Below are positions 32,246 to 33,471 of a stretch of 33,471 nt of DNA, piece by piece (within the stretch, counting starts at the first letter, position 1; each line of letters opens with the position of its first letter). The DNA comes from a virus. The notes under the pieces are model-generated. The model saw only the letters and a list, made by a program, of their open reading frames with translations, was not told where the DNA came from and searched no databases. The position numbers and the translations under genes are program-made. Location: positions 1 through 33,471 of the IMG/VR virus record IMGVR_UViG_3300047095_000639. The stretch is one strand, 5' to 3'.

Positions 32246-32294
32246 TTTTTATTTGTTAAATTTTTGTTAATTGCTAATTTTAACATTTAAGGGT

Positions 32295-32323
32295 TTTGTT
32301 TTAAAATATTTTGCTTATATTTG
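32295..32323 (+). promoter_or_regulatory. Rightward promoter for structured leader RNA
   Basis: TTTG at 32295-32298, 17 nt, TATATTTG at 32316-32323. The spacer is slightly short but both boxes are exact. Start would be near 32328, which is the first base of hairpin 1 below. Divergent from the leftward promoter ~50 nt away. Confidence 0.65.
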
Positions 32324-32327
32324 CATT

Positions 32328-32408
32328 ACTCGTCAGCTACCGAGTGAATATTAAAAATTATTCGCCCCTTTGGATTTATATGTGTAGCTGCGTATAGATA
32401 CTCAGGGG
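32328..32408 (+). ncRNA. Structured leader RNA with complementary loops
   Basis: Three hairpins fill this stretch. H1: ACTCG-loop-CGAGT (32328-32345), loop TCAGCTAC. H2: GAATA-loop-TATTC (32346-32363). H3: CCCCT (32365-32369) with AGGGG (32404-32408), with an internal arm (32372-32383 pairing with 32390-32401, one mismatch) closing the six-base loop GTAGCT (32384-32389). H3's loop is the exact complement of AGCTAC in the H1 loop, so a kissing interaction is possible. The element ends in a T-run directly before the 32426 gene. It may be an attenuator, a riboswitch-like element or a small RNA. No known RNA family is recognised. Confidence 0.5.
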
Positions 32409-32420
32409 TTTTTTATTTTA
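32365..32420 (+). terminator. Terminator/attenuator before nuclease gene
   Basis: CCCCT...AGGGG closes a long hairpin whose inner arm is formed by 32372-32401. TTTTTT (32409-32414) and more T follow. The nuclease ATG is at 32426, so termination here would block its expression and anti-termination would permit it. Confidence 0.6.
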
Positions 32421-32425
32421 TTTTT

Positions 32426-33382
32426 ATGGTAAAAATTACAGATGCTCGCTGGGAAACATCAACTGAGAAACAACAGCGAATCGATTACTTTGCTAAAAAG
32501 CAAAACAACTCTAAGGAGTACTCAGTCATTTATTGTAATCAATTTAATGACAAACTTGTTAAATGGTATAATGAATTTAAAGTTGATTATACAAATGAAT
32601 TAATCTTAAAAGAAGAAAAAGACTATGTAAAAAGGATTAATTCTTTTAATGAATATAAAAAAAATCGCCGAGAAAAAGATAAAATTATTGATGACATTCG
32701 TTACAATAATAAAGAATATCTTTGTGAATGTGGCAATAAACTAAAATACGTTGAAAATTTTAATTTTGTTGGATGCACTAATTACAGAGATAAAACAAAA
32801 AATCACGCTTATATTAATTATACAGATTGGGAAAAATTAAATCAACAGGAATTAAATATTACTGTCAATAATGTTGAATACTCAAAAAATCATTTAGATT
32901 TATTTAGGGTTAGATATGACATTCCTAAAAATGTTAAAATGTCTGTAATTTATAAAACTCTAAAATCTAATGGTGTTAAATTTCTTTGTGATATAAATGA
33001 AAGTAGGTTTAATATTGCTAAAAATTCAAGCAATAATTCAAATCTTGAAGAAATTTTAATCAAAGAAATTTTAGAAAATAAATTTGAAAAGGTATCTTAT
33101 CAACCTGGAATTAAGTACAAAACTGAAAGCTCATTAAATTGGCAACTTAAAATACCTGATTATATTTGTCAAAATTCTGAATCTATATTTATTTTTGATG
33201 CGAAGAAAAATGTAGAAAATTTAGATATTGATCAATTAAATTATTACCATCAATTAGTTGATTTTATAAGATTAAAACATGGTATTAATAAACAGGTTAA
33301 ATCATACTTTATTGTCTTTGATCCTTTGAATGCTGATAAAATTTCTAATTGTCTTACTATTAATAAACTTAAATCATTATGA
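32426..33382 (+). CDS. PD-(D/E)XK nuclease with zinc-ribbon-like segment
   Basis: A 318-residue protein. Residues ~100-127 (C100-x-C102 ... GCTNYRDKTKNH) look like a topoisomerase-type zinc ribbon, with only three Cys visible and His as a possible fourth ligand. The C-terminal domain has PDYICQNSESIFIFDAKKN (Asp245, Asp258, Lys260), a PD-(D/E)XK active site, followed by a helix and VKSYFIVFDP. The combination suggests an endonuclease, perhaps restriction-like or host-DNA-degrading. It follows a structured leader RNA and ends by ATGA overlap with the next gene. Function and target are inferred. Confidence 0.55.
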   Translation: MVKITDARWETSTEKQQRIDYFAKKQNNSKEYSVIYCNQFNDKLVKWYNEFKVDYTNELILKEEKDYVKRINSFNEYKKNRREKDKIIDDIRYNNKEYLCECGNKLKYVENFNFVGCTNYRDKTKNHAYINYTDWEKLNQQELNITVNNVEYSKNHLDLFRVRYDIPKNVKMSVIYKTLKSNGVKFLCDINESRFNIAKNSSNNSNLEEILIKEILENKFEKVSYQPGIKYKTESSLNWQLKIPDYICQNSESIFIFDAKKNVENLDIDQLNYYHQLVDFIRLKHGINKQVKSYFIVFDPLNADKISNCLTINKLKSL

Positions 33383-33471
33383 ATTATATATATATTGCTG
33401 AAGAATTTATTTATGAAGGTTATAATCCTTTACCTTTACTTAATAATAAAGCTCCAAAACTACCAAAGGAT
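33379..33471 (+). CDS. Partial gene at window edge
   Basis: ATG 33379 overlaps the nuclease stop codon (ATGA) and stays open to the last base of the window (31 codons). The start reads MNYIYIAEEFIYEGYNPLPL. It is the next gene of the rightward operon, cut by the window. No family can be judged from this fragment. Confidence 0.55.
   Translation, partial: MNYIYIAEEFIYEGYNPLPLLNNKAPKLPKD

Follow-up and report, generated by a model that had tools for sequence, protein, structure and literature searches.

The leader and CI RNA of satellite phage P4 act in immunity through self-complementary leader segments that lie ahead of a gene for replication (primase), and transcription there ends prematurely. 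The leaders described here are likewise self-complementary, can stand before a primase gene and are predicted to terminate transcription prematurely, but no separate CI-like RNA gene was seen, the leaders were absent from the sampled host chromosomes, and a phage can carry several different copies. In the available excerpt of PMC9378689, the put RNA of phage HK022 is described as about 70 nt long, with two similar stem-loops in both copies, and as acting on distant terminators. Like our leaders, put is a structured nascent RNA just past early phage promoters (putL directly follows PL), is present in more than one operon per phage and is linked to termination control. That excerpt mentions no loop-loop helix, whereas the leaders have freely varying kissing loops and a built-in terminator; their kissing hairpins, H1 and H3, are separated by a linker and no two copies in a phage are alike, in contrast to the two adjacent stem-loops of put, which are similar in sequence between copies. 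A further hallmark of put is that it binds the beta' zinc-binding domain of RNA polymerase. The IsrK locus of the Salmonella prophage Gifsy-1 resembles the leaders in having a phage promoter from which transcription either stops to give a short RNA or reads through to give an mRNA, although the excerpted text of PMC4825925 reports neither a kissing-loop architecture nor a multi-copy family. In the lambda pR'-tR'/6S leader (cf. PMC6606751), the order of promoter, short leader, terminator and genes is similar and an activator, Q, is needed for read-through, but Q acts via a DNA site and a paused polymerase and not via an RNA kissing fold. By this comparison, none of the four systems fits as the family of the leaders, which may be likened to them by mode of working.

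Little is established about gene timing in Bacteroidota phages. The viruses that carry the leader have Bacteroidota as their host group, and the RNA element is apparently undescribed: a search of one open-access library of papers returned no report of such an element, and the phage and Bacteroidetes passages of PMC8040213 report none.

Architecture of the leader

The window (the whole stretch of DNA analysed, 33,471 nt) is a virus record of 33.5 kb. Its genes form a set of Caudoviricetes type, among them those for a large terminase, a RecE-like exonuclease and a C5-methyltransferase. The element occupies 32328-32414, downstream of a promoter, and comprises H1, a weak H2 and the H3 terminator. 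The features, with the basis of each, are as follows.

32252..32271, no strand assigned: direct repeat TTTGTTAA, two copies (32252-32259 and 32264-32271) with 4-nt spacing, upstream of the promoter; conserved in relatives
32295..32323, + strand: Bacteroidota-type promoter TTTG-N17-TATATTTG, with TTTG at 32295-32298 and TATATTTG at 32316-32323; sequence
32328..32345, + strand: hairpin H1 (ACTCG/CGAGT), the expected 5' end of the transcript, with kissing strand CAGCTAC at 32334-32340; fold and covarying homologues
32346..32363, + strand: H2, a weak A/T hairpin (GAATA/TATTC) forming the H1-H3 linker; fold and rough geometry
32364..32409, + strand: H3, predicted intrinsic terminator stem, with kissing strand GTAGCTG at 32384-32390; outer stem 32364-32369/32404-32409, inner stem 32375-32383/32390-32398, loop GTAGCT 32384-32389; fold and stem and loop covariation in alignment A3
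32409..32425, + strand: T6 tract (32409-32414) and A/T-rich gap before the start codon; sequence
32426..33382, + strand: first ORF after the leader, 318 aa, an orphan and a possible PD-(D/E)XK nuclease; ORF list, no family matches

The promoter, hairpins and T-run of the preliminary description are present, sequence and fold being in agreement. Its six-base complementarity of GTAGCT and AGCTAC is lengthened here to 7 bp, the final G of GTAGCTG opening the T.G pair that closes H3. The placement of the T-run ahead of the start codon also holds, with 11 nt between T6 and the ATG at 32426. The leader RNA (98 nt) folds at -27.0 kcal/mol, compared with -15.6 +/- 2.8 in dinucleotide shuffles (z -4.0; 1/200). 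If kissing and a complete H3 coexist, H2 would need to open. The loop match of the window by itself is only mildly surprising at 7 bp (a hand estimate, for a match chosen post hoc, puts it well under 1%); it is a lead and not proof, and the weight of the kissing claim rests on the relatives.

The TTTGTTAA repeat is a probable operator or upstream element of a divergent control region. In relatives, these repeats are also conserved beside both divergent promoters, and they are seen before the leftward operon in L003 and L005.

Occurrence and covariation of the leaders

A primase alignment (A1) supplied 80 viral loci for the leader scan, which used a structural descriptor in which the loop of a 5' hairpin is complementary to a loop within a terminator, and which demanded TAnnTTT[GA] and a T-rich tract. 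In its strict form (promoter, ATG and at least 7 bp), the descriptor gave 30 matches versus 0, 0, 0, 1 and 0 in shuffles. A second, fold-based implementation located leaders in 59 of the 80 primase loci, the other 21 being without a match, and found none in three shuffles of 713 kb or in unrelated viral contigs totalling 485 kb; the leader scan also found none in 400 kb of one Bacteroidota chromosome. A helicase-anchored locus set supplied further leaders and brought the number of distinct ones to 58, with 24 loop pairs, figures that include the window and phage 11b. The DNA pattern AGCTACCGAGT...GTAGCT was tried as well; its 54 matches in viral contigs were unrelated and mostly coding, and were reused as a negative control.

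Six isolated phages were examined. Leaders were found in Flavobacterium phage 11b (at 33629, loops CGGGCAGG/CCTGCCCG), in Flavobacterium phage hemulen6-1 (at 13734, before an annotated endonuclease gene, loops GTCGTCG/CGACGAC) and in Croceibacter phage P2559S (at 33909, loops GTGCAG/CTGCAC), and none in phi12:1, lotta8-1 and PM708P4. Hemulen6-1 was reached via a weak blastn match of the promoter region only, and blastn searches with the leader, run against plasmids and phages, gave nothing else of use. Presence in three isolated, genome-sequenced phages makes the function of the leader directly testable.

Because the descriptor itself selects complementary loops, two checks against circularity were needed. 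Loci without a match were scanned for promoter, fold, terminator and ATG only, loop complementarity not being demanded, and on inspection nearly all of the non-coding, leader-like results had complementary loops (L084, L110, L113 twice, L114, L119, L123, L130 and L140), the exception being L147, which is ambiguous. A covariance model of one subfamily (R1), with the kissing helix left out, was also searched against 675 kb; it returned 12 matches at E<=1, all of them already identified leaders of other families. The window matches R1 at E=1.4 only, so its membership rests on architecture and direct relatives and not on that model. Rfam 15 gave no match at or above the gathering threshold for the window, seven relative loci and 11 further leader loci, permissive scans yielding sub-threshold noise, which bears out the earlier remark that the element matches no recognised RNA class. 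A recurrent, covarying kissing-loop/terminator leader at operon starts that lacks an Rfam family would add a new class to the regulatory RNAs of phages.

The alignment of homologues proposed in the preliminary description was carried out, and their loops vary with compensation, as its kissing-loop reading had predicted. Alignment A3 holds 21 leaders, 18 of them distinct, and in these 18 all 540 cells (100%) are paired in the named structure, kissing helix included. Two-sided changes occur at 15 pairs (101 cells), a level reached by 0 of 500 shuffles, counts that are not probabilities since the A3 rows are related; the covariation argument is carried by the many different loop types. In slid-partner controls, pairing falls to 28-49%. 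Within the kissing helix of A3, four of eight pairs show two-sided changes and none is broken. The near-minimal pair L239 and L240 (CTCTCAC/GTGAGAG versus CTACCAC/GTGGTAG) differs by two compensated loop substitutions, the leaders being otherwise almost identical. When the window is aligned with its relatives L078 and L079, the promoter region and direct repeat are conserved and the leader has diverged with matched loops: CAGCTAC/GTAGCTG in the window and CCACTAC/GTAGTGG in these nearest relatives represent two double compensations among seven pairs. As a structure predicted from these comparisons, the kissing fold is well supported. A loop match of 6-7 bp in one sequence is only moderately unlikely, and could by itself be credited to chance hairpins in an A/T-rich intergenic region; compensated changes over 24 loop types, together with empty controls, refute that explanation and leave it a negligible probability.

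Across types, H1 usually starts within about 10 nt of the -7 box, linkers measure 4-36 nt, and the start codon lies about 8-25 nt past the stem. TAnnTTTG is exact in 17 of 24 loop-type representatives, and a T-rich tract directly follows the stem in 24/24 loop types, as the scan demanded. Such a natural series, in which similar scaffolds bear different matched loop pairs, would be useful for RNA-structure and synthetic-biology work. In some phages (L082/G018, L113, G012, G013) there are two or three copies, and their loops always differ. In the A3 family (L083-L122), loop types GGTCTCAC, GATTCCAC and GGTTCGAC all precede one common small gene, and one loop type is found before different genes, as if the leader had been exchanged as a module. 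A larger variant (L082:5914-6033, L086:5908-6027, L095:4136-4255) has two hairpins inside the terminator domain, and a second short complementarity (CGAAG/CTTCG) in its relatives L119 and L130 hints at double kissing.

Proposed conditional attenuation and alternative readings

The leaders have the layout of an intrinsic terminator or attenuator, with a G/C-closed hairpin and an immediate U-tract between the promoter and the first gene. That promoter, kissing hairpins, intrinsic terminator and start codon are conserved together suggests a conditional form of attenuation, and we rate at somewhat better than even the reading that the leader is a cis-acting transcription attenuator of phage operons, with kissing as part of the terminated fold. 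RNA polymerase would start at or just before H1, which would fold first. As the inner H3 hairpin emerges, its loop would form a kissing helix of 6-8 bp with that of H1, and only then would the outer G/C stem and the U-tract finish the terminator. Most transcripts would then stop at the U-tract, giving a kissing-locked small RNA of 80-120 nt, and the operon would be read through when something, such as a phage factor, a modified polymerase or a competing RNA, blocks or overrides the kissing/terminator fold. We infer from sequence that termination is premature, that it is conditional and that the kissing helix favours and does not delay it; the sign of the kissing effect is close to a coin toss.

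Taken as a free duplex, the helix between the loops has a stability of -6 to -16 kcal/mol. By rough geometry, kissing and a finished terminator are compatible in 15 of 22 types when stacked coaxially and in 18 of 22 when bent. Since this permits coexistence in most types, a mutually exclusive switch is not demonstrated, and a model in which the terminator geometrically excludes kissing was dropped; we weakly favour kissing as part of the terminated fold.

The opposite sign is expected if early kissing slows the closing of the outer H3 stem or has a put-like action on RNA polymerase, so that kissing means expression and its loss termination. The kissing partners are indeed transcribed ahead of the outer 3' stem, linkers of 4-11 nt in some types are short relative to H3, and the HK022 excerpt offers a precedent of structured RNA at early phage promoters that requires no dedicated factor (PMC9378689). 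We nevertheless regard antitermination as rather unlikely: the linker is long enough for coexistence in most types, and put, as far as that excerpt goes, consists of adjacent, similar stem-loops acting on distant terminators, whereas leader loops are hypervariable and the terminator is internal.

The variety of loops bears on another reading, in which a terminated leader RNA pairs loop-to-loop with nascent leaders of the same type, loop types serving as specificity tags by a P4-like logic; the outcome would be feedback on each operon or the shutting out of related phages. Two mutually complementary loops per RNA would permit such intermolecular pairing, loop types are swapped on similar scaffolds, also before one shared downstream gene, and copies within one phage never share loops, with 0 of 54 cross pairs having at least 6 complementary bases. 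About one such match is expected by chance, which makes the zero weak, and neutral drift under a pairing constraint would diversify loops too. A search of 395 Bacteroidota genomes with R1, which represents mainly one subfamily, returned no kissing-type match, its single weak, non-kissing match being a plain terminator (L206), and a prophage role is thus unlikely. Trans recognition is, in our judgement, quite improbable, and we extend the same low credence to the idea that each operon and phage lineage bears its own loop tag as an RNA-coded self-recognition that times or excludes related phage operons.

RNA stability or ribosome access could also be the purpose of a strong hairpin that adjoins a U-tract and a start codon. 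Were this its main role, the kissing fold would shield the mRNA 5' end, the U-tract and A/T gap would offer ribosomes an unstructured site in hosts whose initiation does not depend on Shine-Dalgarno pairing, and termination would be incidental. The position of H1 at the expected 5' end and the start-codon distances given above agree with such a role, which we consider very improbable because a G/C-closed stem abutting a U-tract, the intrinsic terminator layout of all types, is unneeded for stability or translation.

The first genes after leaders encode a BT4734-like primase, a VirE-like helicase (DUF5906), a C5-methyltransferase, a DnaJ-domain protein, an HNH protein, nuclease-like proteins and small unknown ORFs; given this variety, the leader is not tied to one gene. 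Of the attenuator first proposed, the layout recurs in all 24 loop types; control specific to "the nuclease" is unsupported, the leader preceding many gene kinds. No common regulatory signal is evident among so many unrelated genes. In L113:3961, L143:2788, L110:4307 and L296:2394, leaders precede proteins of 177-232 aa that share a nuclease-like motif, RID..L..FGIExK; the one such protein scanned was not recognised by Pfam.

Downstream gene and relatives of the window

The 318-aa ORF had been called a nuclease, an identity that our searches did not confirm. It has no Pfam, PHROGs or NCBIfam family and no relatives in viral contigs, phages or the PDB; AlphaFold gave a pLDDT of 34, so the fold is not predictable, and the sole nuclease hint is a PD-x10-DAK motif spotted by eye. 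Its Pfam and NCBIfam matches include no toxin family. A type III toxin-antitoxin system (ToxIN-like) was considered and rejected, the leader having no visible tandem RNA repeats and the ORF family matches no ToxN/AbiQ-type toxin.

Four contigs have the leftward early operon in common with the window, with exonuclease amino acid identities of 96-97% (L003, L004 and L006) and 76% (L005). At the site equivalent to the window leader, these relatives have ParB-like and PAPS-reductase/DUF3440 genes instead; the TTTGTTAA repeats and promoter are located further along, followed by a matching leader architecture and then a BT4734-like primase gene. The ParB-like and PAPS-reductase/DUF3440 pair (IbrB/IbrA- or Dnd-like) lies between two divergent operons in L003, L005 and L006 (e.g., L005:2347-4713), and the window is without it. 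In the window, the stop of the 318-aa ORF is overlapped by a second ORF (33380-33471), truncated where the contig ends, whose opening sequence, NPLPLLNNKAPKLPKD, looks like a prim-pol N-terminus.
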